The notes under the pieces were generated by a model. That model searched no databases and was not told where the DNA came from. It was given only the letters and a program-made list of their open reading frames with translations. Of a stretch of DNA of 40,610 nucleotides, positions 18,124 through 36,107 are shown piece after piece. Both the position numbers and the translations under genes were made by a program. Origin of the DNA: a virus; IMG/VR virus record IMGVR_UViG_3300032799_000093, positions 1 through 40,610 of that record; one strand, 5' to 3'. Each line of letters starts with the position of its first letter. The first letter of the stretch is position 1.

Positions 18124-18356
18124 GGAACATCCGAGACGCTGAGAGCTCGATCCTTTTCGGCCAGGCCAAAGCCAAGACCGCCCTGGCTAAGTTCGTCGTG
18201 AGCTGGTTCGAGCCTTATACTGATATGGCCCTGGTCCTGTGGTGGCGCAACCTGACACCGATGGAGCGGGTGGAGTTGAAGATGAAGGATCCCGAGGCCT
18301 ACGAGAAAGTGAAGAAGATGATCTCAGACTTGGAGGTGAAAGATGCCGCTATTTGA
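18120..18356 (+). CDS. Small head-associated protein
   Basis: 78 residues, ATGA overlap with the portal gene. Helical throughout; a hydrophobic/aromatic patch (FVVSWFEPYTDMALVLWW) is followed by a charged helix (RVELKMKDPEAYEKVKKMI). It could be a portal accessory or internal virion protein. The family is not recognised. Confidence 0.55.
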   Translation: MRNIRDAESSILFGQAKAKTALAKFVVSWFEPYTDMALVLWWRNLTPMERVELKMKDPEAYEKVKKMISDLEVKDAAI

Positions 18357-18867: not shown

Positions 18868-18868
18868 C

Positions 18869-19924
18869 ATGCCTGATGTTGGAGCGGTACGAGCTGGCCT
18901 CGCAAAGAGGCAACCGAGCGGCGGGGGAAACATCTTCGGCATCGCCGGCGGAGGCGGAGATCGTGACCGTGACCGTGGTGGGCCCGGTGGTGGTGGACCC
19001 GGTGGTGGTGGACCTGGTGGTGGTGGGCCCGGTGGTGGTGGACCTGGTGGTGGCGGAGATCGTGACCGTGACCGTGACCGTGGACGCTGGCGCGGGACGA
19101 ACATGGCACCTGTCCAGGTGCAGGAAGAGACGAAGCGCCCGAACTGGTTGGAGTGGCTTGGCGCGAACCTTACTTCCACGACTGGCCGGGGAATAGGAAC
19201 CGCGCCGAGGCCGCAGATCGCCGGCGAGTTGCAGCCGTACTCGGGTATAGCGGGTGGTCTATCGCCGCAGATCTCCGCTGCGCTTGCTCCGCAAGTCAGC
19301 ACCTTCGACCTACCGCCGGGTCCGGGGATGGGGCGCGGTCGTCCCTTCCCTCAACCTGTCGAGCTCGGTATGGCACCGCAGATCGCGGATGCAATCAGGG
19401 CGGGACGACCGCGCCCTGATTGGCTAGGTGGGATGATGGTGCAGCCGGAAGAGGAAGCTGGTATCCAGCCGGAGCCATTGTGGAAAGACATGCGCGCCGC
19501 GGCTTCGAGTCTTGCTCAGGGCTTCTACGACTGGACGAACCCCGAGACAGGCGAGACGATTCAGGTGCCGCTGCCCGAAGATGTGACCGCGGATCTTGAG
19601 AGCCAGGGGGCGGAGCCTGCGCCCATCGGTGGCGAGGGCGCAGGCAACCTGCTCCCCGACACTTGGAAGCAGCAACGAGCTCGCTGGATGCAGACGATGA
19701 ACGCGATCATGGGGATCCAGAACGAACGGCAGATGCCCGATACCTACTTCGGCGGCCTGGATCGAGTGCTCGAAAACTACTACGGGAGCAGGCCCTACGA
19801 GACGGCGCAGGCTGGTGGTAGCTGGTACGGTCCCGGTGGCTACTACCCCTACTACGGCGGGGGCGGAGGCAACGATTACGAGCCGGGCTTCTGGTTGGAT
19901 CGCGTGAAGTGGAACATCGTCTAG
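18869..19924 (+). CDS. Gly/Pro-repeat protein with PDTW/PDTY motifs
   Basis: 351 residues from the ATG at 18869, which begins 1 nt after the previous stop; a longer frame runs upstream to 18617 through the previous gene. Residues 31-71 are a GGPGGGG repeat framed by RDRDR on both sides. PDTW (263-266) and PDTYFGG (290-296) echo the PDTF motifs of the preceding protein. The remainder is Gly/Pro/Gln-rich with short helices and a Tyr/Gly-rich end (GPGGYYPYYGGGGG). Probably disordered and virion-associated; no enzymatic motif is seen. Confidence 0.6.
   Translation: MPDVGAVRAGLAKRQPSGGGNIFGIAGGGGDRDRDRGGPGGGGPGGGGPGGGGPGGGGPGGGGDRDRDRDRGRWRGTNMAPVQVQEETKRPNWLEWLGANLTSTTGRGIGTAPRPQIAGELQPYSGIAGGLSPQISAALAPQVSTFDLPPGPGMGRGRPFPQPVELGMAPQIADAIRAGRPRPDWLGGMMVQPEEEAGIQPEPLWKDMRAAASSLAQGFYDWTNPETGETIQVPLPEDVTADLESQGAEPAPIGGEGAGNLLPDTWKQQRARWMQTMNAIMGIQNERQMPDTYFGGLDRVLENYYGSRPYETAQAGGSWYGPGGYYPYYGGGGGNDYEPGFWLDRVKWNIV
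18960..19085 (+). repeat. Gly/Pro-codon tandem repeat flanked by GACCGT repeats
   Basis: Units of about 15 nt (GGTGGTGGTGGACC-type) repeat between two GATCGTGACCGTGACCGTG blocks. It encodes the GGPGGGG segment with RDRDR flanks inside the gene at 18869. Such a tract is prone to copy-number change. Confidence 0.7.
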
Positions 19925-19927
19925 GCC

Positions 19928-22900
19928 ATGTCTCTCTTCCGCAAAGAGGATCTGCTTGACGTAGCGCAGCCACCGCGGGAGCAAGCGCCACCTGTTCAGC
20001 CGGCGGGCGCTCCATCCGGGATGAGGGGTCAGCAACCCATCGGGCCGCTGAACCCCGTCCCCTGGCGCGTGCGGATGGCGGCAGCGATCCGCAGCGTACA
20101 ACCCAAGATCGACTTCAACGACGATGGATCCTGGTCGACTCAATGGCCGGTCGAGATCCCCAAGCGTCAGCTCGGATACGTCCCGACCTTTTGGGAGGAT
20201 CCGCGCCGTGTCGCCCAATGGCATGAGAAGCTGCGAGGTCTACCAGCTGGCGAGCCGGTGCCCGATTGGATCGACCGCGATCAGCTGAACATCGCCTATG
20301 ACTATCTGCGCCTGGCACACAAGGGCGCACCTGCTTCTGCCTGGCGCTTCCCCAACGCGCAGGATCCAATCCGGGGCTTCCTCCAGAACATGCCGACGCC
20401 TCCCGAGGAGCTGATGCGTCCAGGCGAGGCGAAGTATGTCCCGCCAGCGGGAACGGACATGCTGACGCTCGGCGGGGAGAACCGACCTGAGGGCCAGCCG
20501 CCGCTTCCGAGGGTGGGTACGCCTGAGTATGCCAAGCTGCCGCTGTTCATGAAGCTGGAGCTGCCGCTGTTCCGCCTGGGCGAGGTGACGGAAACCTTGC
20601 CGGAACAATGGGTGAAGGCGCTGGCTGACGAGCTCGGCATGACGGAGGAGGAGGCGACGAACATCGTCACTTCCGCTGCGTCAGGCGCTACGATGGGCGC
20701 AACCTTCGGGGGAATGGCCGGCACGCTGGCTGCTCCTGGACCTGGCACGCTGTCGGGCGGACTCGTGGGTGGGTTGTTCGGTCTTGGTCTTGGTGGAGGC
20801 ACGGCCACCGCGCAGGGTTTGCTCGCTCGGTGGGCGAGGGCGCAGCCTGGCATCGTCGGCCCTGGCGGGGGCATGGAGGGTTTCTACAACTTCCTGATGG
20901 GCGCGACAAACGCGCTTGGCATGACACTTGCTTGGCCGGCGCAGATCATCGAGAACACCATCGGGGCCGCGGCGCAGGCGGTCTACTCGGCGGTGGATCC
21001 AGAGAAGTACGGCCCTCTCTCGGACCTCGGCATTGATCCAATGGCAACGTGGAGCGCCGGCGGTGCGTTCTACGAAGGTGTCCCGACGACTGGCCTCACG
21101 CCAGGCGGAGCTGAGCCAGGTAAGTCGATCTGGCAAGCTGGCCTACCGGATCCAGTAGATCTACCGCCCGAGCTCCAGACCTCGACCGGGTGGGAAGCTC
21201 TCGGGATCGGGATGCGCGACGCTCGGCAGATGCTCATGGAAAACAAGGACATGACGACCTGGGATGTGGCAGCCTGGGCCGCTGACCGCTTCGGCTTCTC
21301 GTCCATGATGCAGGATCTCATCTTCCAGGGCATCCTCGATCCCCTCAACGCGGTGGGCGATCAAGGCGTGCGGGGTGTCAAGCTGTGGGGCGAGGCGACG
21401 AACAACCCGCACCTCGTCCGGGCCGCTGATATTGGCGTGCGGTTGAAGAAGCCTGGCCTGGTGCGAACTTTCCAGATCTATCAGACGCTTCTCCGCACGA
21501 CAGTCCCGCCTGAGCAGATCTCGCACATGGGTCGCTTCGCTCGCTACCTGGGTGGCGTCACGGCAGAGGGCAAGCTGGTCGATGTTGAAGCGCCGCGTAC
21601 CAAGCTCGGCAAGATCTTCGGGCTCACGCCGCGCGCTCGGGCTGTCCAGATCCTCGCTGTTGGCAGCGATGGACTCAAGGTGCTCATGGGTGGCCGCGAT
21701 GAGGCTGTCACCTTCCCGATGGCTGCTGAGAGGCTGCACCAGCTCGGCCAGGTGGACGGCAAGTGGGCGGAGGATGTGTCGCTCAAGGTCTACGACAGTC
21801 CTGATGGGATGCTGCTGGTAATCATGGCCCGGGACTTCGATTTCACCTGGCTCAAGGAGCAGACGGAAGCCTACGCCACGACGACGCCGCACCGCACGAT
21901 GCTCAAGCTGGTGTCGGGCTTGCTCGGGATGGATGAGGCGAGCTTCCTGGCTGAGGCTGAGAAGGTGGGCGCTCCTGAAATGTGGGGCCGGGCCAAGAAG
22001 GTGATCCAGGACGGGAGCTCGCCCCTCGGACTTGAGGCACGCAAGCTGCTGGAGACGTGGAAGCTGTCAGAAAAGACAGTCATGGATCTGCTCGATGTGT
22101 TCACCGGCAAGGACGCAATCCCCTGGTCGGAGGGTGAGTGGAAGGCCAAGCTCTACGACGCCTGGCTGGAGCATGAGGCGCGCTGGCTTGTCGAGCACCT
22201 GGGAGTGGAGGTAGAGGGCACGGTTGGCCGCATGGCTGACGTGATGAAGTCGATCTACTCCCTGGCCTTGCTGGATCTGTCAGCGAAGTATGCCATCGCC
22301 AACGGCCTCAACAATATCTCAACGATGGTGGTGGACAGGAACATCGACCCGTCGATCATGGGACGCGAGCTCAAGTGGTTGGAGAGGTTCAGCGTTGCTC
22401 CCTTCCGCCTGGCGCAGAGCTTCGGCGGGGCTGGTGGATTGCTGGAGGGTGTCGATCTCGGAGCCTTGCACGCGGGCAAGAAAGAGGCGCTGGTCGCTGC
22501 CGGCCATGCAGCTGATGTGCACGCGATGGAGGCACTCACCCAGGCGGCAAAGGGCGGGGGTGGCCTGGCTACTGCGGATCGGTGGATCCACAACATCCGG
22601 CGCAAGGTGGGCCTGGCGAGCAGGCTGGCCGGCAAGATGGAGCGGGCTTCGGGGATCCACGCCACGACCGCCGGCATCAAACAATGGTGGAGCGGGACAT
22701 GGAGGCGCGGCGCTGGCTATCGGATCATGCCGCCGGAGCTGGAGCGTCTGCTTGGGCCTGATGTTGCGAGCACGGTCTATGGCCTGGTGGACGGGGCCAT
22801 GAACCAGGACGAGCTCGCCGCCTCGCTGATGAAGCGATCCAGCCGTCGCCCGCCCGAGGCTTTCCTCGATGATGTCGCCGCCGATCTTGGTATGAGCCCC

Positions 22901-25900
22901 CAGGCTGTGCGCGAGGCGGTGGCAAAGACTGGTTTCCTGGACTACCTCAACGAGCGCCTGGGGAGCGTCAACACACGCGAGGATCTGGCGCGCATCTTCA
23001 CCGATTGGGAAGCCGAGAGGCATGACTACATCCAGAGCTTGCTGCCCTCCGACCTGGACACGATTGCTGGTGAGGCCGCGGCCCAGGCGCAGGCTGGCGA
23101 CTGGATGGGAGTGCTCGATCTCTACTACGGTATCAACCGCAAGGTGGCGGATTGGTGGACGCAGCACGTCCTGAACATGAGCGACATGATGGCGAAGGCC
23201 GACGAGATCACGGATCCCGCTGTCCGCAACGCCATGATCTCATCGCAGATGCAGAGCGCACAGGCTGAGTGGGGCAGGATGCGAAGCCTGGAGCTCGCTG
23301 CCTATGACGGGATCGAGAAGGGTCTACGGGGAAGCGCCAACGATGTCGAGGTCCGCGGTCCTCTCTACGATGCTGACATGCAGATCCGTCAGAGGATGCA
23401 GCCTGGCGAGGCTTTTCATGGTGAGCGAGTAACGCCAGAAGTGCGAGCGCAGGCCGAAAGGTTGGCCGGCACGCTGGAGACTGGCGACAAGCTGGTAGAC
23501 GTTCGGGGTAACGAGAGCCGGGTTGAGGTACAGAAGAACGGGACCATTTGGGTCTACCCGCTGAGCGAAACGGGAGAGGCGCAAGGTGCTACTCTCATCC
23601 GGCACGTTGACGAGTGGGACACGGGCGGGCTTAGCAGTTTGGCGAGGTCGAGGATCATCAAGCCGGCGCGGGGTGGCGTGGAGCCTCCGGCCAGGTGGCG
23701 AGAGTTGACGATTGCGCGCAACGACATCCGGGAGCGCTTCTTCATCGAGCGCAATCGGTTGTGGCACGACTTCCACCGGACCAACTTCGACAGCTCCAAA
23801 GCCAGGTTCAATCGCTTCGTCGGGATCCTGGACGAGCTCGATCAGAAGTATCGCAACCTGACGCTGGAGGATGTGCAGGCACAGCAAGCGCTGGATGAGG
23901 CGGTCGTTGCCACGATCTCGCGCAACAACCCGGACGCCGGCGACGTGGCTGGTGTGATCCTGGCTGAAATGCGGGATGGGCTGCTCAAGCTGTACGAGCG
24001 TGAGGCCAGGGTTCGGAAGGTGCCGCTGGAGCTCTACACCGGGGAGCGCCCAACGGGGAAGAACGTCGCCGCCAAGCTGCGGACGTTGTTCGCTGACGAT
24101 CTGGAGCTCCTGATGCGAATGGAACCGCTGCTCCAGTCCTTCGAGCTGGTGCGCGGCGAGCTCATGGTGCGCCAGGTGGCGCGCAGGATCTACGATCTCT
24201 ACGTCAAGACGATCAAGCTGCCGGCAATCGCTGACTACTACACCCTGCGAAACGAGGCGGTAGCAGATTCCTTCGGGCCACAGATCCCGAGAGCTGAGAG
24301 GATCGTCGCTCCTGAGGTGGGATCCCGGGCAGACGTGACGCCCAGGCCGGAGACTGTGGCGCGGGATGTGGTCGAGGGCGAGAAGCCTGTTGAGGCTACG
24401 TCCGAGCCAATCCGCACGGTCGTCAGCGATGAGCTCCAGGGGCTACTGATTCTTGCCAACAAGCGCGGTCGGATCACGATTGCCACGCCGGACGGTCGCC
24501 CTATCAACGCTCACCTTGTCAACTGGATCAACTCGGACGAGGGCTTGGGGCTGCGCCGGCAAGGAGCGCCCATCCGCAAGCTGGAGCAGCTGGCACCGGA
24601 GCAGGCACAGGCCGCAACCCTGCGGTTGGAAGAGCGGGGCCAATACTTCGATGGGCTGGATGCAATCAGCAAGGATCGCAACATCACCGTCGAGACGCTG
24701 CGTGCCCTGGATCATTGGGACGATCCTCGCCTGGGTGCTGGCACGGTCAAGGCGCGCCGCCTGGCTGTGGCAAACGGGATGGACGAGGGCACCGCCAAGA
24801 TGCTGCCTCGCGAGCAGATCAAGGACTGGCTGCTGGCGAAGAGGGATGGCCGGCCATACGAGGGCGCGCTGCCGATGTCGGTCGAGCGCTACCGGCAGGA
24901 GATCGCCCAGGTTGTCGGCAAGGACAAGGAAGCCGCCTGGTGGGAGATCCAGCGCCGGCTTGCTGCTTCGAGAGGCATGACGCCTGAGGAGTATGTGGCG
25001 CACTACTCCGCCAACAGCGGCGACAACGTGCACGCGCTCCACCAGGCGCAGAACATGGAGCATCCGGCCACTATCGAGGCCATTGAATACTTCGGGGTGA
25101 CTGACAACCCGCACGAGGCCGGCTATCTGCTACCGGATGGCCGGTTCTTGGATTTCAGCGGTAGGCATTGGGAGACGCCGGCATCAGATCTTGGCTGGAC
25201 CGAGAAGCAAAAGGCAGAGTACGCAGAAATGCCAACCTACATCCGCCAGGGAGATCGGTGGGTGCCGAACAAGAACGCCGGAGCGAGAGCTGAGCGAAAC
25301 TACGCCAACACGCGCAACGTCGATCACTCTGAGCCGGAGGGTGCTCTAAAGTTCCTTTACGATGGACACCTACAGAAGTATGACTGGATGGCGCAGGCTG
25401 GTGTGGTGCGATGGAGTTGGGTGGGCCAGTCGCTTGTTATCGAGATCGGTCAGAAGCCAACCAGGGCGCAGATGAGACAGATCGAGTACCACGCTGCACT
25501 CGCTTCCAAGTCCGGCACCGATGTCGTTGTGGAGACGTGGCGCGGGGACTGGCGCAACCCCGAGGCGCGGGTTGAGTACGACAAGTTTGCAGCTGACTAT
25601 TCCTGGGACGAGCTGGTGCAGACGATCCGCAACGTCTACCCGGACACGCTCTATCAGCGGCCCGAGGTGGTGATGCGGGATCCGGCTTTCGCTGCCGCCT
25701 TCGAGGGTAGCCAGGCGGTTGATGCTGAGGGTAGGCCGCAGGTTCTCTACCACGGCTCCGATATGTTGGGTGCGTCCACCCGCTTCGATCCCTCCAGCAT
25801 GACGGACGATGGGCGGATGGGGATGGGCTTCGAGTTCACCGACGACCCCGCGCTCGCCGGCGGAGAGGTCAGGCCGATCACGCGTGAGCTCGCCTTCGCT

Positions 25901-28900
25901 ACCGAGGCTGAGGCCAGGGCAGCGAACAAGATCGGATACCCATACTACGACGCGGTGACGGGCAAGTGGCGCGCCAGGGTGCTCGACTATGAGCTCTCCA
26001 AGCTCGGCACCGCACAGCGCCCGGTCCCGAAGCAGATCCCGATGCGCGAGAGAGGGCGCTACATCCGGGCCCTGAAAGACACGCCGGCCTACGCTGGCCT
26101 GGTGGCGACTGACAAGGCGAGGGCTGACAAGATCCTGCGCGGCTTCCTCATGCGTGGATCCTGGACGGCGCTCACCGGGCTCGAGGACATGGGGATCCAG
26201 GTGCGGCGGGTGCTGGTGTCTCAGAAGCTCGCTCCTGCCGGCGGCATCATCCCGGCCTACCTGTTGGCGAAGAAGGTTGCCTACTTCGACCGGCCTGTGT
26301 CGGCGGAGGATGGAGCTCGGATCCTGGATGCGGCGAGGAAGCTCTATCGGATCCCCCAGGACGTGACGCTTGAGGGCCGACCGTTGCGCGAGGGCATCGC
26401 TGACCTGGAGCGGGTGGCGATCTACGATGGGGCAGCCGGGCCTCGCCCCTTCGATAGCCGCGACGTTGGCCCGCTTCTCCAGACCGCCGGCTTTGACAGC
26501 GCCAGCGACGCGTACACCAGGCCGGACGGAAGAACGGGCCGACGCTGGACCGTCTACGATGCTGACAGAGTGCGGTCGATCTACAACCCCACCACCGCGA
26601 CGAACATGGCAGACCGCACGCTATTCCAGCTGCCTGAGTCGGCTAACATGCTCAACCGGGGTTTCTACTTGCTCAGTCAACGGCTGATTGAAACGAAAAT
26701 GACCCAGGCCATGCCGGTCGATCAGTTCCGGCGCTGGCTCAAGGGCAAGGGTGTCAAGCAGGAGGAGCTCTATTGGACCGGACTGGATGAGTGGCTGACC
26801 AAACGAAGCAAGAAGCAGGGAGCGGTGACGCCTGAGGAGCTGCGCCGCTACTACGAGCGCAACCAGTTCACCATCGAGGAGGTTCACTACCCTGGCCTGC
26901 GCGTCACGTCGCGGCGCGCTGGCTATTCTCTTGGCCCGTGGAATGAAACCTCTGACGTGCTCGGTAGACAATGGAGCGCGACGCCATTGGATGAGAGCCT
27001 TCCCTTGATGAGGATTGAGGAGCATCCGCCTGGCGATGGTGGCTGGAGAGAGGGAGAGGTAGAACAGCTCCTCCGCCGACCGCCTTCGGAGACTTGGGAC
27101 GGACAGGCGCTCTATGCTATCCGGGAGCTCAGGCCGGGCTTCGGATGGCAGACTTACGCGTACGCCGAGAGCTTGGAGAAGGCGAAGCTGATGGCTAGCG
27201 GCCAGCTGGAGATCGAGCCTCGCTCCCCGAATTGGGAGTCGGTGCAGATGGGGCCTGGCGGGGCTGACTACCATGAGATCGTGCTGACTTGGCCGCGTCA
27301 GGTGCGCGAAATCGGAGACTTCTTCACCTGGCTAGGCGACAAGGATGCGGGTTGGCGGTTGGGGGAAGATAGCTGGTTGTGGCGCAGCGCTTCGGAAGAG
27401 GTGCGCGGTAGGTTGCGGGAAGAATACGATGCAGCGGTTGCGCGTGGCGAGGCCATGACTGAGGTGGGGCCTTTCGTCGCCGGCGAAGAGCAGCACAAGT
27501 GGGGAGAAAACAACGTGATCGCCTGGATCCGCGGCTCGGAGTATACAGATCTCCAGGGCCGGCGGGTGTTTGTGATTGACGAGGTGCAATCGGACTGGCA
27601 TGAGAAGGGCCGCGACCGCGGGTATGCCAGCGAGGAATCTCGCGCCAGGCTGCGAGAGCTCAACAAAGAGGTGAACAGGGCCGAAGCTGCTCTCAAGGAG
27701 GCGCAGCAAGACGCGCTGAACTGGAGCAAAGACCTCGACGCCGAGCGCTATGTTGCTTTGTGGACGTTCATCAAGGACAAGACCGGGCTGGAGCTTGGGG
27801 TAGCCAGCGCCTACGAGGCGCGCAACTATGCCGATTCGTGGATCACGGAATGGACGAGACACGCTCGCCAGGTGGCTAATGACCCGTTCTACCTAGAGCA
27901 GCTCTCGCCGGATGCGCGTGCCGGCCTCGACTTGCTCATGGATCCTGCCGTACAGGAGATCGCTCTCCGCACGACCGAGGCAAAAGAAAGACACCAGCAG
28001 GCACAAGACTCCTACAGGGTCCAGGGCGACGAGATCAAGATGCAGGTGCCGGCGGGCCCGTGGTCGGACGACTATGGCGAGCTCGCCTTCAAGCGCGCCG
28101 CGATGTGGGCTGTGCAGAAGGGCTACGATGTGCTGGCCTGGACGACCGGAGAGCGCCAGGGCGAGCGCTGGATGAAGCATGGCTACGCCAGGCACATCGG
28201 TTGGGTGATCGACGCTGAGACGGAAACCATCACGATCTATATGTCCCGAGAGGGCAAGCCGCCGGCCAGGATCTACACACACGACGAGAAGGAGCTGAGC
28301 ACCATTGTCGGGAAGGACTTGGCCCGGCGGATCCTGGCACGCGAAGGCGAGTCGCCTACGCGGATTCGCTTCGAGACGGGGCCGGCGGTGGATGAGTTCG
28401 GGACTCCATTCACGGGCTACCGCGTGATTGACGAAGCAACGGGACAGCAGATCGGACCTGACTTCACGAATGGCGAAATGGCTAACGCCTACGCTATTGA
28501 GCAAGTCGGATACATCGCCGGCCTCCAGGGGTGGAGCCCGGAGGAGAACGTAGCTGCGCGGGGGGCAAGGGCAGGAGTGATCCGGCCAGGGCCAGGCGAG
28601 ACGAAGGGTGTGGAGTGGGGCAGCCGGGGCTTCCATGTGTTCTACGACGACAAGTTTGGAGGCTATGCCAAGCGCTTCGCCAATACCTTCGGCGGCAAGG
28701 TGGGCGATCAGGTAGTGGTCGTCTCTCCCAAGCTGGAGTACCCGATGGTCACAGAGAAGGCCGGGCCCTACTCTGACAAGTGGCGTGTGATCTACAAGGA
28801 CGCGCGCACGGACTTCCAGATGGGCTTGCGTGAGGTGCATTTCAGCACCGAGGAAGCGGCGAGAGACTACGCCGATAGGGTGCGCGCCGGGTATCAGGAG

Positions 28901-31900
28901 TTCAGCGCGATGGTGCACGCCGTCGAGCTCAACGAGAAGGCCAGGAGCAGCGTGCTCCAGAACGGAATGACGCTCTTCCAGCTGGACGCCGATCACCCGC
29001 TGCGCTTCCGCCTGGACCGAGCTCGGGCTGAGATCGTGCAGTTCCTCGCTCGCCACAACGTCGATGCTGACCGGGCCACCGAGATCATGCGGCGGGCTGT
29101 CGCCGGCGAAGGGCTGAGGCATGAGGACTATGCCTTGTTCCTGATGGACTCGGGCGAATGGCAGGCGCTCGCTGAGCAGCTGAGGATGGCAGAGCTCGAT
29201 GTGCGCCTGGGGGATCGCCTGGGCCACGCTCCAAACCTGGACGAGTTCCGGCGCTACATGGCTGAGCAGTACGGCTCCGATGTGCTCTATCAGCTCGAAG
29301 GGCCGAAGCCTTTGCTGACCGGCGGCGGGGATGATGGGATCTGGAGAGTAACGCTGGATGGGCGCGAGGTGCTGCCGTTCAAGGACGAGGCCACCGCCAG
29401 GCGGGTTGTCGATGGGCTGAACGCAGATGGCGTGACTGACATGCAGCGGATCAAGCCGAAGGGCGCGGCCACCCCCTTGCAGGATGGCATGTGGCTGGTG
29501 CGCTACTTCGACGGGGCGGATGTCTCGACAGTCGTGCACGAAAACCTCCACGTCTTTAGCTCGCTGCTCAAGCCGGACGAGGTGGAGATCATCAAGGCTT
29601 GGCAGAAGGAAGCTCACGGTTCGGATGTGGATTACGTCGATGGCCGGTTCGTTGGGGATGATGCCGAGGTGGGCCGGGCCTACGAGGATCTGGCGCGTGG
29701 CTTCGAGCGCTACATGGCTGAGGGTGTGGCTCCTGTGCCGGCCCTGGCAGCGATCTTCGAGCGGTTCAAGGAATGGCTGCTCGGGGTATATCGGTCGATC
29801 ACCGGCAGCTCTATCGACGTGAAGATCACGCCTGAGGTGCGCCGGATGTTCGACGCCTGGCTCACTCTGCCGGACGAGATCGAGCGAGCACAGCAGGAAG
29901 CTCTACCGCTGACTGATAGGCCGGCGGATGTCATGCCGACCAGGACTAACCGCGGCGTGCAGCTGGACGAGCTCGCGACAGAGATTGACCAGGCGAAGGC
30001 GCTAGAGGAATCGCACTCCAGGCCGACGCCGGATCGAGCTCGGGTAGGGGGTATGACGCCGGACGGCCGGCTGCTCACGCAATCGGGACGTGAGATCCCG
30101 CTGCCTGACAAGCGCGGCAAGGTCGAGACGCAGGTGAAGAAGATGCACGCCTGGCTGGTGGAGCAGGCGAAGGCGGAAATGGCGGCGCGCAAGTGGCCGG
30201 CGGACGAGTTGCTCAAGAGCTTCGTTGAGAGCATGAACCCCAAGAGGCTCAGCCAGTCGGACGTTGACACGCTCAACGATGTGCTCTTCGGGGTCGAGGA
30301 GGTGCGTCTAGTGTGGGAGGATCCCACGATGGACGCGCAGCAGAAGGCGAAGGCGTCTCCGGCCAGGATGCAGGAGCTCACCGATAAGGGTGCATCGAAG
30401 GCCGACGCTGCCAAGCAAGCCAGCGCAGAGGCAAAGACTCCTCGGAAGCCGGGGCCCAAGCGGATCCCGCGCAACCTGCGGGCTGCTCTCGGCCTGGCGC
30501 TCCAGGAGTTTGAGGACGCAGCGGGAGCTCACGATCAGGAGCGGATGGCCCTGGCTGAGGCCGAAGTGAACCGACTGGAGGATCTGGCCGGCGTGAAGCT
30601 GACCGGCGACCAGGAGGATGCGCTGCTCCGAGAGCTCGACAAGGCGCGTGAGGCGCAGGGTATCGCGGCTTCGGGGATCCCGGACAACTGGAAGGCGATC
30701 CTGGGGTGGATTGACGAGGCCAAGAGCAAGCTCGATGAGCTGCCTCAAGAGGCAGACGACACCACCAGGGCCGCGCTCGAAGGCGAGATCGACCAGCGCT
30801 TGCAGGCGCTCAAGGCGCAGCCGGATCTGACCTACCACGAATGGAGTGCTAGGCGAGACGCCGCGCTCTACTTCCTCAACGGTACGGTCAAGGATCCACA
30901 CCTGTTGCTGCAAGAGGTGGAGAGGACGCTAGGCGAATGGAACCGCGCTGCTCCGAAGGGAATGGTGACTACCCTTCTGCTCAGTAGCGTGGCCGACCGA
31001 ATCAACGCGGGAGCACAGGCTCTCATCCGAGGCGGTCAGCGGATGGCTGGTGTCGAGGGCGCACAGACCACAGCCCACGGCCCGGATCCAAACATCGTCT
31101 ACCAGTTCCGCTACCAGGCGGTCGAGCTCGCGGACTTGATCGTGAGCCATGATCCGAGAAGCCTGGAGCCGAACCCCGCCTACCCATCAGAGCTGCAACC
31201 TCGCCAGCGTGACCGAGAGGCAGCGAAACAATGGGTGGATGGGAAGGTGCAGACGTGGAGGCCGCAGACGCTCCTGGAGCTCACCGCCAGGCTGGATGAT
31301 GGATCTCCGATCATCGGGCCCGACATGCTGGTTGAGAGCGGCAACGGGCGCTTGATTGTGATGAGCCGGCTGACGCAGGACGAGCCGACGATGGTGGCGC
31401 AATACAAGGACGAGCTGGTAGCCAATGCCGGCACCTACGGCCTGGATCCGTCCACGGTCGGCGGCATGACCAACCCAATGCTTGTGCGCGTGCGCCTGAC
31501 CGAGCTCACGCCGACCGAGAGGATTGACTTCACGCACATCGCCAACGCCCCAACCACCGCGCAGATGAGCGCGGCGGAGAAGGCCAGGGCGGACGCCATG
31601 AGCTTCAACCCTGACTTGCTGGTGAACCTAGAGATCGGAGACACACAGACCTTCGAGGAGGCAATCGCCGCGCCTCGCAATCGGAAGTTCGTGCAGATGT
31701 TCCTGGCAGGCATAACGGAGGAGGAGCGAGCCACCTTCTTCGACGCGGGCGGGGAGCTCAACATCCAGGGCAAGCGCCGGATCCTGGCGGCGGTCCTGGC
31801 GCAGACCTTCGACGGAGACAAGGGTGCGCGCCTGGCCGAGATCCTGACCGAGAGCGCAGATGTCAACGTGAAGAACCTGGGATCCGGCATCATCGGCGGC

Positions 31901-34342
31901 CTGGGTGAGCTTGCCAGGGCTGAGTCGCTGATCCGGTCGGGGCGCAGGCCGGCGGAGCTCACCATCGTTGAGGATCTGGCCGCTGTCACCACGAAGCTGA
32001 GCCACCTGCGGCAGATCGGGATGTCGGTAGACGACTATGTGGCGCAGACGCAGATGTTTGAGCGCGAGCTGACACCCTTCCAGGAACAGATGCTAGGCGA
32101 CATGGGTGAGTGGAAGTCGGCGCGCCAGGCGCGAGAGACGATCAAGGCATACGGCAAGCTGGTCGCCTTCCAGCCTGACGTGACGCAGGGCGCGCTGTTC
32201 GGGGATATGCAGTACCCGACGAAGGCCGAGCTGTGGGATCGGGCTCTAGGATCTCCGCAAGAGACGCTGTTCCAACTGCCCGATGGCGTGGACATGGGTG
32301 CCCCCGACTCAATCCCGCCGGAGATCCTGCCTGGTGAGCTCTCGCGTGAGGGTGTGCAGAACGTGGCTCCGGTGATCCAGGGCCTCCGAGATCGGATGCT
32401 TGGGGACAAGGGCTACCTGCAAGAGCAGGTGATGAACCTCGACGGGCTACCCCAGGATGGACAGCGGATGCTGACCGACTGGATCACGGGTGTCAAGGCG
32501 GACATGGCGCAAACGAAGATGGGCGCGATCCGTTGGGGCGAGACGATGCGGGATATGTCTCTGCTCAACTACAACAACCGGCGCGGATTCTCTGGCGCGG
32601 CCACCCTTGCCATGCCCTACTACTTCTGGCCGACTGAGACGGTGCTGCGATGGGCGCTGCGCCTGATGGACAGGCCGGCCATGCTCGCCAACTTCTACCG
32701 ACTGAGGCAGAAGCAGAAGATGATGAAAGAGATCCCGGGATGGCCGACGCGGTTGGAGCACAAGATCGAGGTGCCGGTCCCCTTCATGCCTGACTGGATG
32801 GGTGGCGGAGTGTTCGTTGACCCGCTTGGCGCGATCTTCCCACCGATCATGTTTCAGCAGGGCATGGAGCGCTTCACCAGCGGGCGACAAAAGGATGCGA
32901 TGTCGGCGCTGCGCGTGCTCGGGGAGTGGGTGGAGAAGGGGCAGGTGCCGGAGCAGGAGGCGAAGATCGCGGCGACCCAGGGCGGGCCGATATGGGATCG
33001 AGCGGTGGCGCAGGCGCAGGCCGAGAGCGACAGCGGAAACATGGATCCCTTCGACTTCATTTCGACCTTCACCGGCTTTGCTCCTCCGGTTGAGTGGGCG
33101 CGCCAATACTACCGAGGCACGCCGGAGAACATCAGTCCGTTGCCGATCACCAGGCTCATCAAGACTTCCACCGCTGCGCTTGGCTTGGGTGGACCAGGCG
33201 GGGTGAACATCGAGGCTCCAATCCGCAGATCTCTCAACCTGCCGACCTATGATCGCTTCGAGTCCTACCGAGTCGACCGGATGCTAGCAACCCTGGCGGC
33301 AGAGGGCAAGATCTCGGCGGACGAGGCGCTGATGGCGGGGATGGAGAGATCGGGGCCGGCCTATGACGAGGCGCTGCGCCGCATCGAGCAGGTGCGTATG
33401 GCAGGTGGCTTCGCCAACCCGCTATTCTGGATCGGTTTCCCTGGCGACATCTTCCCGAAGGGCGAAGAGCACCAGCGCGCTCTCGGCTTGGAGTGGGGCA
33501 AGGCATACGACGCCTATGCCAACGGAGACACGGAAGCGCTGGATACCTTCCTGGACAAGTACCCGGAATACCGGGTGCGCCTGGCCTCCTTCGATGATCC
33601 GCAGGAACGCCTCAAGTCCTACCTGGTGGACGAGGTGTGGCTGCGCTACCGTGCTCTGGATCCAACCAACAAGCAGCTCGCGACACAGCAGCTCGGGACC
33701 ACCTTCCAGCTGACGTTTCTCGACAAGGAGACGCGCAACTACGCCGACCTCGACATCCAAACCCTAGCGCTGTGGGCCAAAGCGCTCGGCGGGATCGTAC
33801 CCAACACGAAGGAGACAGACTTCGATCTGCCAATGGGGATGAAACCCCCCGAGGTTCGGGTACTCCCGCCGGCGCTGGCGAAAGAGGTCAACGACTACAA
33901 GGAGTGGCGGAACAAGGAGCACCCGTATTGGTTCGCTCTCCAGAGCCGGTACTACGATCTTCCCGCTGGACCACGACGCCGGCAATTCCTGGCGCAGTTC
34001 CCCATGCTCAAGAAGTATTGGGACGAGAACCGCGCTTACCTGGCTTCGCACCCTGACGTGAAGCTCTACCAGCAGAGCTTTGAGGTGACGAACCCCGAAG
34101 GCGAGGAGGTGGGGCGACTGTCGATGCCCGAGATCCTGAGTAATCCGATGTTGATGCGCCAGCTATACGGTGCCACCTTCGCCGGCCAGCCGCTATCGAG
34201 CGGCGCGCTGACGGAGCTGGAGCGGATCTGGCAAACGAGCGGCCAGGAGCAGCCTTTCGGATCCTGGTTGCAGAGCGTCATGACGCCACTCGCCCAACCG
34301 GGCCAGGGCGAATTGACACCCCCACAGATGGGGCTATACTAA
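19928..34342 (+). CDS. Giant polyvalent protein (4804 residues), probably ejected with the DNA
   Basis: One uninterrupted frame, about 36% of the genome, predicted mass near 530 kDa. In order: Pro-rich N-terminus (to about 240); Gly/Ala-rich hydrophobic segment (about 251-298); helical regions with YAIANGLNNISTMVV (about 785); a unit with YFGVTDNPHEAGYLLPDGRF (about 1720); an ADP-ribosyltransferase-like domain (1915-2225); a conserved unit with IDEVQSDW (2550-2557) and AWTTGER; a zincin-like metallopeptidase with HENLH (3204-3208); helical linkers; a ddrB/ParB-like domain with SGNGR (3804-3808); and a helical C-terminal part with LAMPYYFWPTET. This mosaic is the hallmark of polyvalent proteins of phages and conjugative elements. 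It lies between portal and capsid genes, supporting virion packaging. Five [TV]L[FY]Q[LR] motifs sit near segment boundaries. Confidence 0.85.
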   Translation: MSLFRKEDLLDVAQPPREQAPPVQPAGAPSGMRGQQPIGPLNPVPWRVRMAAAIRSVQPKIDFNDDGSWSTQWPVEIPKRQLGYVPTFWEDPRRVAQWHEKLRGLPAGEPVPDWIDRDQLNIAYDYLRLAHKGAPASAWRFPNAQDPIRGFLQNMPTPPEELMRPGEAKYVPPAGTDMLTLGGENRPEGQPPLPRVGTPEYAKLPLFMKLELPLFRLGEVTETLPEQWVKALADELGMTEEEATNIVTSAASGATMGATFGGMAGTLAAPGPGTLSGGLVGGLFGLGLGGGTATAQGLLARWARAQPGIVGPGGGMEGFYNFLMGATNALGMTLAWPAQIIENTIGAAAQAVYSAVDPEKYGPLSDLGIDPMATWSAGGAFYEGVPTTGLTPGGAEPGKSIWQAGLPDPVDLPPELQTSTGWEALGIGMRDARQMLMENKDMTTWDVAAWAADRFGFSSMMQDLIFQGILDPLNAVGDQGVRGVKLWGEATNNPHLVRAADIGVRLKKPGLVRTFQIYQTLLRTTVPPEQISHMGRFARYLGGVTAEGKLVDVEAPRTKLGKIFGLTPRARAVQILAVGSDGLKVLMGGRDEAVTFPMAAERLHQLGQVDGKWAEDVSLKVYDSPDGMLLVIMARDFDFTWLKEQTEAYATTTPHRTMLKLVSGLLGMDEASFLAEAEKVGAPEMWGRAKKVIQDGSSPLGLEARKLLETWKLSEKTVMDLLDVFTGKDAIPWSEGEWKAKLYDAWLEHEARWLVEHLGVEVEGTVGRMADVMKSIYSLALLDLSAKYAIANGLNNISTMVVDRNIDPSIMGRELKWLERFSVAPFRLAQSFGGAGGLLEGVDLGALHAGKKEALVAAGHAADVHAMEALTQAAKGGGGLATADRWIHNIRRKVGLASRLAGKMERASGIHATTAGIKQWWSGTWRRGAGYRIMPPELERLLGPDVASTVYGLVDGAMNQDELAASLMKRSSRRPPEAFLDDVAADLGMSPQAVREAVAKTGFLDYLNERLGSVNTREDLARIFTDWEAERHDYIQSLLPSDLDTIAGEAAAQAQAGDWMGVLDLYYGINRKVADWWTQHVLNMSDMMAKADEITDPAVRNAMISSQMQSAQAEWGRMRSLELAAYDGIEKGLRGSANDVEVRGPLYDADMQIRQRMQPGEAFHGERVTPEVRAQAERLAGTLETGDKLVDVRGNESRVEVQKNGTIWVYPLSETGEAQGATLIRHVDEWDTGGLSSLARSRIIKPARGGVEPPARWRELTIARNDIRERFFIERNRLWHDFHRTNFDSSKARFNRFVGILDELDQKYRNLTLEDVQAQQALDEAVVATISRNNPDAGDVAGVILAEMRDGLLKLYEREARVRKVPLELYTGERPTGKNVAAKLRTLFADDLELLMRMEPLLQSFELVRGELMVRQVARRIYDLYVKTIKLPAIADYYTLRNEAVADSFGPQIPRAERIVAPEVGSRADVTPRPETVARDVVEGEKPVEATSEPIRTVVSDELQGLLILANKRGRITIATPDGRPINAHLVNWINSDEGLGLRRQGAPIRKLEQLAPEQAQAATLRLEERGQYFDGLDAISKDRNITVETLRALDHWDDPRLGAGTVKARRLAVANGMDEGTAKMLPREQIKDWLLAKRDGRPYEGALPMSVERYRQEIAQVVGKDKEAAWWEIQRRLAASRGMTPEEYVAHYSANSGDNVHALHQAQNMEHPATIEAIEYFGVTDNPHEAGYLLPDGRFLDFSGRHWETPASDLGWTEKQKAEYAEMPTYIRQGDRWVPNKNAGARAERNYANTRNVDHSEPEGALKFLYDGHLQKYDWMAQAGVVRWSWVGQSLVIEIGQKPTRAQMRQIEYHAALASKSGTDVVVETWRGDWRNPEARVEYDKFAADYSWDELVQTIRNVYPDTLYQRPEVVMRDPAFAAAFEGSQAVDAEGRPQVLYHGSDMLGASTRFDPSSMTDDGRMGMGFEFTDDPALAGGEVRPITRELAFATEAEARAANKIGYPYYDAVTGKWRARVLDYELSKLGTAQRPVPKQIPMRERGRYIRALKDTPAYAGLVATDKARADKILRGFLMRGSWTALTGLEDMGIQVRRVLVSQKLAPAGGIIPAYLLAKKVAYFDRPVSAEDGARILDAARKLYRIPQDVTLEGRPLREGIADLERVAIYDGAAGPRPFDSRDVGPLLQTAGFDSASDAYTRPDGRTGRRWTVYDADRVRSIYNPTTATNMADRTLFQLPESANMLNRGFYLLSQRLIETKMTQAMPVDQFRRWLKGKGVKQEELYWTGLDEWLTKRSKKQGAVTPEELRRYYERNQFTIEEVHYPGLRVTSRRAGYSLGPWNETSDVLGRQWSATPLDESLPLMRIEEHPPGDGGWREGEVEQLLRRPPSETWDGQALYAIRELRPGFGWQTYAYAESLEKAKLMASGQLEIEPRSPNWESVQMGPGGADYHEIVLTWPRQVREIGDFFTWLGDKDAGWRLGEDSWLWRSASEEVRGRLREEYDAAVARGEAMTEVGPFVAGEEQHKWGENNVIAWIRGSEYTDLQGRRVFVIDEVQSDWHEKGRDRGYASEESRARLRELNKEVNRAEAALKEAQQDALNWSKDLDAERYVALWTFIKDKTGLELGVASAYEARNYADSWITEWTRHARQVANDPFYLEQLSPDARAGLDLLMDPAVQEIALRTTEAKERHQQAQDSYRVQGDEIKMQVPAGPWSDDYGELAFKRAAMWAVQKGYDVLAWTTGERQGERWMKHGYARHIGWVIDAETETITIYMSREGKPPARIYTHDEKELSTIVGKDLARRILAREGESPTRIRFETGPAVDEFGTPFTGYRVIDEATGQQIGPDFTNGEMANAYAIEQVGYIAGLQGWSPEENVAARGARAGVIRPGPGETKGVEWGSRGFHVFYDDKFGGYAKRFANTFGGKVGDQVVVVSPKLEYPMVTEKAGPYSDKWRVIYKDARTDFQMGLREVHFSTEEAARDYADRVRAGYQEFSAMVHAVELNEKARSSVLQNGMTLFQLDADHPLRFRLDRARAEIVQFLARHNVDADRATEIMRRAVAGEGLRHEDYALFLMDSGEWQALAEQLRMAELDVRLGDRLGHAPNLDEFRRYMAEQYGSDVLYQLEGPKPLLTGGGDDGIWRVTLDGREVLPFKDEATARRVVDGLNADGVTDMQRIKPKGAATPLQDGMWLVRYFDGADVSTVVHENLHVFSSLLKPDEVEIIKAWQKEAHGSDVDYVDGRFVGDDAEVGRAYEDLARGFERYMAEGVAPVPALAAIFERFKEWLLGVYRSITGSSIDVKITPEVRRMFDAWLTLPDEIERAQQEALPLTDRPADVMPTRTNRGVQLDELATEIDQAKALEESHSRPTPDRARVGGMTPDGRLLTQSGREIPLPDKRGKVETQVKKMHAWLVEQAKAEMAARKWPADELLKSFVESMNPKRLSQSDVDTLNDVLFGVEEVRLVWEDPTMDAQQKAKASPARMQELTDKGASKADAAKQASAEAKTPRKPGPKRIPRNLRAALGLALQEFEDAAGAHDQERMALAEAEVNRLEDLAGVKLTGDQEDALLRELDKAREAQGIAASGIPDNWKAILGWIDEAKSKLDELPQEADDTTRAALEGEIDQRLQALKAQPDLTYHEWSARRDAALYFLNGTVKDPHLLLQEVERTLGEWNRAAPKGMVTTLLLSSVADRINAGAQALIRGGQRMAGVEGAQTTAHGPDPNIVYQFRYQAVELADLIVSHDPRSLEPNPAYPSELQPRQRDREAAKQWVDGKVQTWRPQTLLELTARLDDGSPIIGPDMLVESGNGRLIVMSRLTQDEPTMVAQYKDELVANAGTYGLDPSTVGGMTNPMLVRVRLTELTPTERIDFTHIANAPTTAQMSAAEKARADAMSFNPDLLVNLEIGDTQTFEEAIAAPRNRKFVQMFLAGITEEERATFFDAGGELNIQGKRRILAAVLAQTFDGDKGARLAEILTESADVNVKNLGSGIIGGLGELARAESLIRSGRRPAELTIVEDLAAVTTKLSHLRQIGMSVDDYVAQTQMFERELTPFQEQMLGDMGEWKSARQARETIKAYGKLVAFQPDVTQGALFGDMQYPTKAELWDRALGSPQETLFQLPDGVDMGAPDSIPPEILPGELSREGVQNVAPVIQGLRDRMLGDKGYLQEQVMNLDGLPQDGQRMLTDWITGVKADMAQTKMGAIRWGETMRDMSLLNYNNRRGFSGAATLAMPYYFWPTETVLRWALRLMDRPAMLANFYRLRQKQKMMKEIPGWPTRLEHKIEVPVPFMPDWMGGGVFVDPLGAIFPPIMFQQGMERFTSGRQKDAMSALRVLGEWVEKGQVPEQEAKIAATQGGPIWDRAVAQAQAESDSGNMDPFDFISTFTGFAPPVEWARQYYRGTPENISPLPITRLIKTSTAALGLGGPGGVNIEAPIRRSLNLPTYDRFESYRVDRMLATLAAEGKISADEALMAGMERSGPAYDEALRRIEQVRMAGGFANPLFWIGFPGDIFPKGEEHQRALGLEWGKAYDAYANGDTEALDTFLDKYPEYRVRLASFDDPQERLKSYLVDEVWLRYRALDPTNKQLATQQLGTTFQLTFLDKETRNYADLDIQTLALWAKALGGIVPNTKETDFDLPMGMKPPEVRVLPPALAKEVNDYKEWRNKEHPYWFALQSRYYDLPAGPRRRQFLAQFPMLKKYWDENRAYLASHPDVKLYQQSFEVTNPEGEEVGRLSMPEILSNPMLMRQLYGATFAGQPLSSGALTELERIWQTSGQEQPFGSWLQSVMTPLAQPGQGELTPPQMGLY
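25670..26602 (+). other. ADP-ribosyltransferase-like domain of the giant protein
   Basis: Residues 1915-2225. It starts PAFAAAFEGSQAVDAEGRPQ followed by VLYHGS (1939-1944), then GMGFEFTDDPALAG, and closes with WTVYDADRVRSIYNP. This follows ART domains of polyvalent proteins: SKVVD..G.P...YHGT, G.YFT.DP..A, and a closing DP.QIKS-like strand. The NAD-binding His (H1942) is present; the catalytic Glu could not be placed with confidence. It would modify a host target after ejection (inference). Confidence 0.65.
27260..28726 (+). other. Conserved domain with IDEVQSDW and AWTTGER motifs
   Basis: Residues 2445-2933. Key steps: GADYHEIVLTWP, then NNVIAWIRGSEYTD, IDEVQSDWHEKGRDRGY (from 2550), YGELAFKRAAMWAVQKGYD, AWTTGERQGERW (from about 2737) and GGKVGDQ at the end. 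I recall the same order in other large phage proteins; its activity is unknown to me. The conserved Glu, Gln, Asp and Trp residues look like an active site (inference). Confidence 0.55.
29468..29890 (+). other. Zincin-like metallopeptidase domain of the giant protein
   Basis: Residues 3181-3321. HENLH (3204-3208) fits HExxH, with Glu3205 as catalytic base. About 45 residues later, YEDLARGFERYMAEG gives a possible third zinc ligand (Glu3253), as in gluzincin-like polyvalent peptidases. The following IFERFKEWLLGVYRSI and EVRRMFDAWL match the usual end of this domain family. It could cleave host proteins or process the giant protein itself. Confidence 0.7.
31103..31960 (+). other. ddrB/ParB-like domain of the giant protein
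   Basis: Residues 3726-4011. It reads YQAVELADLIVSHDPRSLEP, then PSELQPRQRDREA, IIGPDMLVESGNGRLIVMSR (SGNGR at 3804-3808), LVRVRLTELTPTERIDF and IANAPTTAQMSAAEKA. This is the order of the ddrB-ParB domain named in phage polyvalent proteins after the P1 defence-associated protein DdrB. In P1 the dar/ddr gene group is linked to antirestriction, so a protective function for incoming DNA is plausible. Confidence 0.75.
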
Positions 34343-34357
34343 CCACGGAGGTCACAG

Positions 34358-35128
34358 ATGGGCGACGAGCTTGAGACTCAGGAAGCATCCCCCCTGGCCG
34401 AACAGCCAGGCCAGCCTTCACCCCGACCGCGACAACCGGCGCGGGTGGACGTGGCGGATGCGGACGAGGATCGACCTGTCACGCTGAGGGAATTGCGGGC
34501 CGCGCAAGCCGACCTGGATACTCGGTATCGCAGGACGCAGGGCGCGGTTGACCGCAGCGAGCAGCGACTCTTTGATCGGTTGCGGCAGGATCTTGCAGGT
34601 GTGGATGGGCTTGGCGAAGAGCTCCGCGGCATCGGTGTCGATCTGACGCCACAGCAGCAGGAAGCTCTCCGCCAGCGCCGGCTCATGCGGACCTTTCAAG
34701 AACCGCCTGAAACGCCGCAAGCTCCTCGGGGGCGTGCGCCTAACCGCGAACAGCCCGCGACAGAGCAGGAAACCGAGTTCAACCCGGTCGCTGCAACTGC
34801 GGATGCTGCCTGGGCGATCATGACGCAGGAGTACGGTGTGGTTGTGGAGGAGCAGGATCCCGAGTTCAAGATGATCGACCTCGCCACTACCAAGCCGTCT
34901 CGCCTCCTGGCAACTGTACGGGAGGCTGCGGAAGCGAAAGCCCGGAGACTAGGCCGGCTCCAGGACGAGGAAGGGGAGACGGGCGGACCACCTCCGGCTG
35001 CCCCTCGCCCTGACTCAAGAGCACGCGCTGGAGCTGGTGGCCGCAGACCGGCGGCACCTTCGTCCTTCGAGGGCAGGAAAGCTATGGACCTGTTCAAAGA
35101 GGGCTACCAGAAAACCACACCTTCATAG
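34358..35128 (+). CDS. Putative capsid scaffolding protein
   Basis: 256 residues, GGAGG about 7 nt upstream of the ATG, directly before the major capsid gene. Acidic and Pro-rich N-terminus, then a charged helical segment (LRELRAAQADLDTRYRRTQG), then disordered Pro/Arg-rich parts, and a short basic, helical end (SFEGRKAMDLFKEGYQK). This composition, with a C-terminal helix likely to touch the coat protein, is the usual form of phage scaffolds. Confidence rests mainly on position and composition. Confidence 0.65.
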   Translation: MGDELETQEASPLAEQPGQPSPRPRQPARVDVADADEDRPVTLRELRAAQADLDTRYRRTQGAVDRSEQRLFDRLRQDLAGVDGLGEELRGIGVDLTPQQQEALRQRRLMRTFQEPPETPQAPRGRAPNREQPATEQETEFNPVAATADAAWAIMTQEYGVVVEEQDPEFKMIDLATTKPSRLLATVREAAEAKARRLGRLQDEEGETGGPPPAAPRPDSRARAGAGGRRPAAPSSFEGRKAMDLFKEGYQKTTPS

Positions 35129-35138
35129 GAGGTAAGAA

Positions 35139-36107
35139 ATGGGCTACACGCTTGCCGACTATGCGCGCGTGATGAAAGACCCGCTCAAGGCTGGCGTGGT
35201 GGATGTGTTCCGTCGCGAGAGCTTCATCATGGAGTATCTCGAATGGATGGGGACGGACACCATCGTTAGCCAGCAGCTTCGCACCAAGACTCTCCCGACT
35301 CCCGAGTGGCGCAAGATCAACGAGACGTGGGTAGGCAGCTCTGCCACCTTCGAGCCCGTTGAGGATCGCGTGTTCTCGCTCGGTGGCCTGGTGGACGTTG
35401 ACAAGCTGCTGCTCAAGAGCAAGTCGATCATCGACCAGCGCGCAAGCCAGTCGGACGCGTATGTGACGGCGCTCTCATACGCCTTCAACGACACCTTCAT
35501 CAATGGGGACACCCTGGTTGATGAGGACCAGTTCATCGGGATCTGGCGACGGCTGGTGAGCTACCTGCCATCCGGTCAGACGATCCTGGGCGGCGGGTTG
35601 GACATCTCGCCCGACAGCGGTTCGCTCTCGGCTTCCGAGGACACCTACCTGGATCGGCTCCAAGAGCTGATCCATTCCGTCGAAGGGCACCAGCCGAAGA
35701 TCCTTGCCATGAACGACACGCTCTTCCTGCGGACGATCTCGGCAATCCGCAAGAAGGGCCTGTTTGCTCAGACCGAGGACAGCTATGGCCGCAAGGTCAC
35801 GACCTTCGGGCCCGGTGGCCCGACGATCATCGACCTCGGCTACAAGGCCGATCAGACCAACCGCATCATCGGCAACGTCGAGCTCGCGGATGGGAGCGCC
35901 CTGACTGGCGCGGGCAGCACCTCCGTCTACGCGATGCGGATGGGTGAGCAGTACCTTCACGGCCTCCAGCTCTACGATATGGACGTGAAGGACAAGGGTG
36001 AGCTCGAAGATGGTGTGACCTACCGGACGGTGATCGACTGGCCGGTGGGAATCTCGCTGGTCAACCCCCGCAGCATCGCGCGGTTGGTTGGCATCATCGC
36101 AGCCTAG
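35139..36107 (+). CDS. Major capsid protein (HK97-fold type)
   Basis: 322 residues, AGGAGG about 6 nt upstream. It begins YTLADYARVMKDPLKAGVVD, then ALSYAFNDTFINGDTLVDED with FIGIWRRL (about residues 109-135), the E-loop/spine step seen in many HK97-fold coat proteins (F...FINGD...EF.GL). Later come ILAMNDTLFLRTISAIRK and a C-terminal beta domain with YAMRMGEQYLHGLQLYDMDV. Length is normal for an unprocessed coat protein with a separate scaffold. The cement protein follows. Confidence 0.8.
   Translation: MGYTLADYARVMKDPLKAGVVDVFRRESFIMEYLEWMGTDTIVSQQLRTKTLPTPEWRKINETWVGSSATFEPVEDRVFSLGGLVDVDKLLLKSKSIIDQRASQSDAYVTALSYAFNDTFINGDTLVDEDQFIGIWRRLVSYLPSGQTILGGGLDISPDSGSLSASEDTYLDRLQELIHSVEGHQPKILAMNDTLFLRTISAIRKKGLFAQTEDSYGRKVTTFGPGGPTIIDLGYKADQTNRIIGNVELADGSALTGAGSTSVYAMRMGEQYLHGLQLYDMDVKDKGELEDGVTYRTVIDWPVGISLVNPRSIARLVGIIAA

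Follow-up and report, generated by a model that had tools for sequence, protein, structure and literature searches.

A 4804-residue cysteine-free phage protein with conserved end modules and a variable enzyme cargo, likely to be an ejected polyvalent carrier protein

A single open reading frame at positions 19928-34342 (plus strand) of the stretch of DNA analysed here (the window, 40610 bp, which is the entire IMG/VR virus record IMGVR_UViG_3300032799_000093) starts with ATG and contains 4804 codons without an internal stop. The locus raises the question of what kind of protein is encoded by so large a frame in so small a phage genome, and whether this protein enters the host. We consider it likely (probability approximately 0.78) that the giant protein is a virion-packaged, ejected polyvalent carrier protein of a short-tailed phage, with packaging and ejection being inferred in the absence of virion proteomics.

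A preliminary description of the locus had reported an intact 14.4-kb frame of 4804 residues that fills about a third of a 40-kb phage (approximately 36% of its coding capacity). These statements held, the former on the basis of both the open frame and dN/dS values. The gene (14,415 bp; GC3 of its frame, 0.79) accounts for 36% of the genome. The last 190 bases of the window are a copy of the first 190, in which the inner approximately 100 bases are identical and the outer approximately 90 have diverged, and the gene leaving the 3' end of the window resumes at its start. The genome is therefore closed, with a size of about 40.4 kb. The outer 90 bases of the overlap (positions 1-190 and 40421-40610) differ at scattered sites, and these differences may reflect the presence of two strains in the assembly. 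Two partial relatives match aa 1-820 and aa 3619-4804 of the giant with 93% protein identity (87% DNA identity for the first). Because the dN/dS values of these two end portions against the close relatives are 0.059 and 0.060, the giant is a real gene under strong purifying selection (dN/dS of about 0.06). No independent contig bridges the middle of the gene (aa 821-3618).

The C-terminal part of the giant was first matched in UOF79210 (2156 aa, annotated as 'hypothetical protein') of Podoviridae ctptF532 (MW202608), which occupies the same gene position. A profile search with this module retrieved 12 IMG/VR loci and, from a rumen Chloroflexi assembly, one prophage. Together with the GenBank phage MW202608, these loci encode proteins of one kind, the gene being as a rule located between the portal and scaffold/capsid genes. 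BLAST comparison of the window protein with these relatives revealed a common plan, in which an N-terminal module and a C-terminal module (the latter sharing 27-39% identity with the relatives, plus one relative with 93%) are separated by a centre of widely differing length (Table 1). In the 'core-only' members (G008, G010, G012, G013, and MW202608; 1844-2195 aa), the two modules are joined by only about 420-530 aa, whereas the 'loaded' members (2981-7021 aa) carry differing enzymes between them. The centre ranges from about 1180 to 5100 aa in G003, G004, G005, G006, G009, and the window protein (the lengths in the relatives were derived by subtraction), and G007, G011, and the Chloroflexi prophage protein are likewise cargo-bearing. 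The cargo recognised by Pfam consists of GGDEF and ART domains in G004; ART in G005; PBECR5 and ddrB-ParB in G006; GGDEF, ddrB-ParB, and weak SNF2/helicase matches in G009; and ART and GNAT in G011. An HExxH peptidase is present in all nine loaded members and in none of the five core-only members, a split that is descriptive only, as the relatives are not mutually independent.

Table 1. Features of the giant protein and its flanking genes in the window
Feature	Position	Strand	Basis
Terminase large subunit (TerL)	14938-16317	+	PHROG_2, E = 5e-32
Portal protein, inferred	16327-18123	+	Position and conserved synteny; homologues beside TerL in relatives, E to 5e-84
Small P/G-rich cysteine-free protein, 174 aa	18343-18867	+	Upstream of the giant, same block
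P/G-rich cysteine-free protein, 351 aa	18869-19924	+	Stops 3 bases before the ATG of the giant
Glycine-zipper-like segment (aa 249-300)	20672-20827	+	Sequence
Conserved N-terminal module (aa 250-1134)	20675-23329	+	BLASTP to relatives, 21-25% identity, best E = 8e-63; alignment A3
Variable cargo region (aa 1135-4163), about 3030 aa	23330-32416	+	Spacing between N and C matches in relatives
ART-like domain (aa 1924-2195)	25697-26512	+	YHGS and GMGFEFT motifs, end VYDADRVRSIYNP
EVQSDW-type domain (aa 2480-2780; motif at aa 2552)	27365-28267	+	Motif scan; function unknown
HExxH...E zincin-like metallopeptidase (aa 3149-3316)	29372-29875	+	Invariant catalytic residues
ddrB-like ParB domain and extension (aa 3708-4116), VESGNGR motif	31049-32275	+	PF18763; PHROG 5143, E = 1e-48; alignment A4
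Conserved C-terminal module (aa 4164-4787)	32417-34288	+	12 IMG/VR loci, MW202608, Chloroflexi prophage
Scaffold-like protein, inferred	34358-35128	+	Position, composition, synteny
Major capsid protein (MCP)	35139-36107	+	PHROG_212, E = 1e-49; PF20911 (GP7), E = 4e-15
Head-tail adaptor, SU10-like (short-tailed phage type)	36964-37722	+	PF24175, E = 7e-5, just under cut-off

The largest member found, G009 (L042/L043; IMGVR_UViG_3300031949_000016, native positions 28668-49730), is encoded by a single cysteine-free frame of 7021 aa in an 86.7-kb record. The size of the window protein, which had been described as remarkable, is thus not unique, and a protein of 4675 aa is also found in the cultured phage Y7. 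The Chloroflexi prophage (L045), which is of the same type and approximately 40 kb in size, lies at about 63-104 kb of CADATZ010000005.1 and contains an integrase-like gene, with host genes to either side and tRNAs close to one of its edges. This prophage, found in a metagenome assembly, provides the first host hint for the carrier family. A further candidate relative in Pelobacter (L046) was dropped, as the match spans 25 residues only.

No Pfam, PHROG, or NCBIfam model matches the N- or C-terminal module. Both were predicted by AlphaFold to be all-helical with low confidence (pLDDT of 56 and 58), and comparison of these models with viral structure models yielded nothing under an E-value of 0.001 and no recognised fold. 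The glycine-zipper-like segment near the start of the N-terminal module may possibly insert in a membrane, a role that is only a guess; hydrophobic, glycine-rich segments are found at a similar place in G003, G004, G006, G009, and G011. When the window protein was compared with phages, neither a distant blastn search with the first half nor a tblastn search with the first 2400 aa gave a match, and PDB sequence searches (the whole protein and the N-module, C-module, and peptidase profiles) gave nothing significant.

Within the cargo region, the preliminary description had listed ART-like, EVQSDW-type, metallopeptidase, and ddrB/ParB-like units, a list that proved to be partly right. The ddrB-ParB unit held: PF18763 matches aa 3725-3856 (E = 2e-21) with 76.8 bits, well above the curated cut-off of 27.6 bits, and the identity of this domain is firm. 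In the profile search of slices that had been proposed as a check, LPD38, a candidate for the C-terminal module, was not found by hmmscan; the LPD38 model (PF18857) searched against the record also gave nothing at E-values up to 10, and the controls were equally silent. The metallopeptidase also held. In an alignment of the window protein with eight other giants (24-40% identity to the window protein), H3204, E3205, H3208, E3253, and E3260 are invariant in all nine sequences and constitute five of only nine invariant columns, which meets the definition of a zincin metallopeptidase as an HExxH motif with a downstream Glu ligand, conserved in the family. The MPTase-PolyVal model (PF18818) found no match in the record at E-values up to 10, and the assignment rests on the invariant HExxH...E residues without Pfam support, i.e. 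it is inferred from sequence alone. Support for the ART-like unit is weak. The match to PF18760 (ART-PolyVal) is sub-threshold (E = 0.0085; 17.3 bits versus a cut-off of 31.2) and covers only positions 1-41 of the 140 profile positions; local support comes from a profile built from the ARTs of the relatives, which finds aa 1924-1973, and the end motif VYDADRVRSIYNP is similar to that of the relatives' ARTs. The unit is referred to here as 'ART-like' and is not assigned to PF18760. The EVQSDW motif is present as claimed, and the region belongs to no Pfam, PHROG, or NCBIfam family; a search for related loci with this region gave no pattern match, and its only noted similarity is a distant match (E = 6e-4) to a 2387-aa protein of the cyanophage Dfl-JY45 of Dolichospermum. 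No polymerase family was detected in Pfam, PHROG, NCBIfam, or PDB sequence scans of the giant.

The giant is situated between TerL/portal and the scaffold-like gene/MCP, so that its reported location between portal and capsid genes also held, TerL and MCP being identified by library matches and the portal by inference. Neither the portal candidate nor the scaffold-like gene has a library match, and the order portal-giant-scaffold-MCP is kept among the relatives, in which homologues of the portal and scaffold genes occur in the same order. No genes for long tails (tail tube, sheath, or baseplate) were recognised in the window by library searches, and a short tail is inferred from the gene content. 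Of the two P/G-rich proteins encoded upstream, the 351-aa protein might be an ejection partner of the giant and the 174-aa protein a minor virion protein, both of which are inferences. A recurring PDT[FYW] motif is found in both proteins (18343-19924).

The giant contains no cysteine in 4804 aa. About 36 cysteines would be expected from the 28 other genes of the window (0.74% Cys; P of about 3e-16), and with the virion genes as the background (0.62%) the P-value is 1e-13. The Trp, His, and Met contents are near normal, i.e. other rare residues have been kept. Base composition was rejected as a cause, TGC/TGT triplets accounting for 4.5 and 2.7% in the other two frames, as was a genome-wide lack of cysteine, given the content of the other window genes. 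Across the carrier family, only 4 cysteines are present in 42,815 residues, all in G011, and cysteine contents are normal in the relatives' remaining long ORFs. The giant of the Chloroflexi prophage, which is not included in this total, contains 4 cysteines in 3311 residues. G011 (L044/L015), with its 4 cysteines, is the sole IMG/VR family member to contain any. The capsid proteins of this locus and of the Chloroflexi prophage resemble each other, and two of the four cysteines are similarly placed in the giants of the two (965/996 and 973/1004). Among 32 ORFs around related ddrB-ParB or C-module loci, the 31 from phage contigs (many of which are related to one another) contain 0-3 cysteines and the Chloroflexi prophage member contains 4. 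Cysteine is also absent from the 4675-aa giant of Y7 and the 3421-aa giant of Y3, both of which are phages in culture.

In control phages, cysteine is absent from proteins whose ejection is established, namely N4 vRNAP (3500 aa), gp51, and gp52; T7 gp15 and gp16; and P22 gp7, gp16, and gp20. It is also absent from the tape measure protein gpH of lambda. It is rare in gp47, gp49, and gp50 of crAss001 (1, 1, and 3 residues, respectively, in 1349-2412 aa). Terminases, portals, tail fibres, and tailspikes contain about 0.26-1.5% cysteine, and most other virion or packaging proteins tested contain 0.2-1.5%. The P22 scaffold and N4 MCP, which are internal and not known to be ejected, are also cysteine-free. 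T7 gp14 and gp13 contain 1 and 3 cysteines, respectively; P1 DarB (annotated as defence-against-restriction), DarA, and DdrB contain 9 (0.40%), 1, and 2; and the EVQSDW protein of Dfl-JY45 contains 6 in 2387 aa. The absence of cysteine is not a universal rule, because P1 DarB, the Dfl-JY45 protein, T7 gp13 and gp14, G011, and the Chloroflexi prophage giant carry cysteines. The inference that it marks ejection draws on about a dozen known proteins, with P1 DarB and T7 gp13/gp14 being partial exceptions. No earlier report of cysteine exclusion or of such a rule for ejected proteins was found in the open-access literature; remarks in subscription papers on N4, T7, or P22 are possible.

In our main reading, the giant is a carrier in which fixed N- and C-terminal helical modules flank a long in-frame enzyme cargo (the ART-like, EVQSDW-type, HExxH metallopeptidase, and ddrB-ParB units). 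It would be stored in the head near the portal, leave in unfolded form by way of the portal and tail, either before the DNA or together with it, and refold inside the host. N4 vRNAP, which is expelled into the host, is thought to unfold in this way through the narrow tail (PMC12633501). The end modules would help to build the DNA conduit. The cargo, perhaps released by its own metallopeptidase, would act on host proteins and nucleic acids and thereby secure early infection; such self-cleavage and these targets are inferred, and cutting of the chain by a metallopeptidase before or after delivery has been proposed for polyvalent proteins generally (PMC5512222). The reason for the cysteine purge is likewise inferred: a chain held in a particle outside the cell, whose passage requires it to unfold and fold again, may be unable to afford a stray thiol, cargo included. 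This reading is supported by the conservation of the end modules around a variable centre, with cargo differing among the relatives, and by the ParB protein of Piluca, which is annotated as epsilon15 gp16-like and adjoins a pilot protein. The earlier proposal of a polyvalent, host-delivered protein is supported by the Pfam-recognised polyvalent cargo of homologues at the same position (ART-PolyVal, PBECR5, GGDEF, and ddrB-ParB), the invariant peptidase, and the lack of cysteine, with packaging remaining untested; the suggested role in disarming host defences is one of several possible cargo functions and is also untested. Against the main reading stand the absence of proteomics or infection data, the lack of a recognised fold in the end modules, and the existence of cysteine-free internal proteins not known to be ejected, together with the exceptions described above. 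A bolder version, for and against which we find the case evenly balanced, holds that the constant end modules package and eject whatever enzyme is inserted in frame and that every inserted domain is purged of cysteine, so that a near-zero cysteine content in a large phage protein would be a sign, readable from sequence only, of entry into the host through a short tail.

Several other explanations were considered. The giant might be a late-made assembly factor or internal core scaffold at the portal that is never delivered, its enzyme-like domains being relics. The location of the gene between the portal and scaffold/MCP genes, the long helical modules, and the absence of cysteine from some scaffold and capsid proteins are in line with this view, but neither invariant catalytic residues of the peptidase nor enzymes swapped between relatives are needed for scaffolding, and the core-only members indicate that the structure works without cargo; we regard this explanation as unlikely. 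Still less probable is a tape measure protein of a long tail carrying extra enzymes. Tape measures are large and helical and can be cysteine-free, as is lambda gpH, and the poor model of the N-terminal module retrieves tape measures, although not significantly. However, tail tube, sheath, and baseplate genes were not recognised, the giant precedes the scaffold and MCP genes and is not located among tail genes, the SU10-like adaptor points to a short tail, the relative MW202608 was deposited as Podoviridae, and a range of 1844 to 7021 aa would imply very different tails.

A closer competitor, which is a variant of the main reading with an overlapping probability, is a polyprotein that is cut by the HExxH peptidase during assembly into several virion proteins and never ejected whole. 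The confinement of HExxH to loaded members and the processing of P1 DdrB before packaging (PMC5512222) favour this possibility, but N4 vRNAP is packaged unprocessed despite its metallopeptidase domain (PMC5512222) and the cysteine purge extends over the whole chain, and we lean against it. Finally, the single long frame or the 40-kb genome might be a product of misassembly, given that the outer approximately 90 bases of the end copies disagree and that no independent contig spans the middle of the giant. This explanation is practically ruled out by the consistent composition of the 14.4-kb open frame, the dN/dS of 0.06 at both gene ends, and the presence of comparably long frames in relatives from other samples, three of which come from records that have 127-bp repeats at their ends.

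Phage proteins that enter the host are known for a handful of models and are otherwise hard to identify. If a near-zero cysteine content is a mark of ejection, a simple count could sort thousands of phage giants that lack annotation, and available virion proteomes offer a check of this idea; the absence of cysteine would thus be a general and cheaply testable sequence signature. The carrier family, in which the same end modules bear from almost nothing to about 5000 exchangeable residues, suggests a natural delivery scaffold, and the activities that repay delivery can be read from the exchange of cargo among related phages.

Iyer et al. 2017 (PMC5512222) described polyvalent proteins, such as DarB and DdrB of P1, from phages and conjugative elements. 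The giant contains at least two unrelated activities in one chain (ddrB-ParB and the HExxH peptidase, with the ART-like unit as weaker evidence) and is encoded in a phage beside late virion genes (TerL/portal and scaffold/MCP), and it thus shows two of the three features used to define such proteins; the third, packaging in the virion and delivery alongside the DNA, is inferred. It shares with them disparate enzymes, a zincin metallopeptidase, ddrB-ParB, ART, and a location among virion genes. By domain mixture and gene context, it fits a phage polyvalent protein, with delivery being inferred and indirectly supported by the absence of cysteine. Unlike the proteins described by Iyer et al., the giant has conserved N- and C-terminal carrier modules that match no library model, reaches 4804 aa and 36% of a 40-kb genome, and is cysteine-free, a feature not mentioned in that study (P1 DarB has 9 cysteines).

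The closest working parallel in size, lack of cysteine, and presumed route is, by analogy, N4 vRNAP (gp50; Schitoviridae), which is also a giant (3500 aa) without cysteine and contains a metallopeptidase domain (PMC5512222). Two smaller ejection proteins, cysteine-free as well, enter the host alongside it when it is expelled (PMC12633501). In contrast to N4 gp50, no RNA polymerase domain was detected in the giant, the two share no sequence match, and their flanking modules differ. Pseudoalteromonas phage vB_PalP_Y7 (OR791114) encodes a giant 'DarB-like' protein of 4675 aa, and vB_Pun_Y3, also a Pseudoalteromonas phage, encodes a ParB protein of 3421 aa. Both proteins resemble the giant in size class, ddrB-ParB, and absence of cysteine, but only the ParB region was aligned in the phage search and the genomes of the two phages are larger (57.7 and 48.9 kb, respectively). 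In Y3 (L134; 11973-25347), the 3421-aa protein with ddrB-ParB is adjacent to a cysteine-free protein of 1027 aa annotated as an ADP-ribosyltransferase, and the cargo is thus divided over two genes. UOF79210 of MW202608 is similar to the giant in gene position, N- and C-terminal modules (25 and 34% identity, respectively), and absence of cysteine, but is core-only, no ART, EVQSDW, HExxH, or ParB cargo having been found in it. Polyvalent proteins are known as a kind; the giant is a variant distinguished by the constant end modules, which are absent from the libraries, and the chain-wide absence of cysteine.
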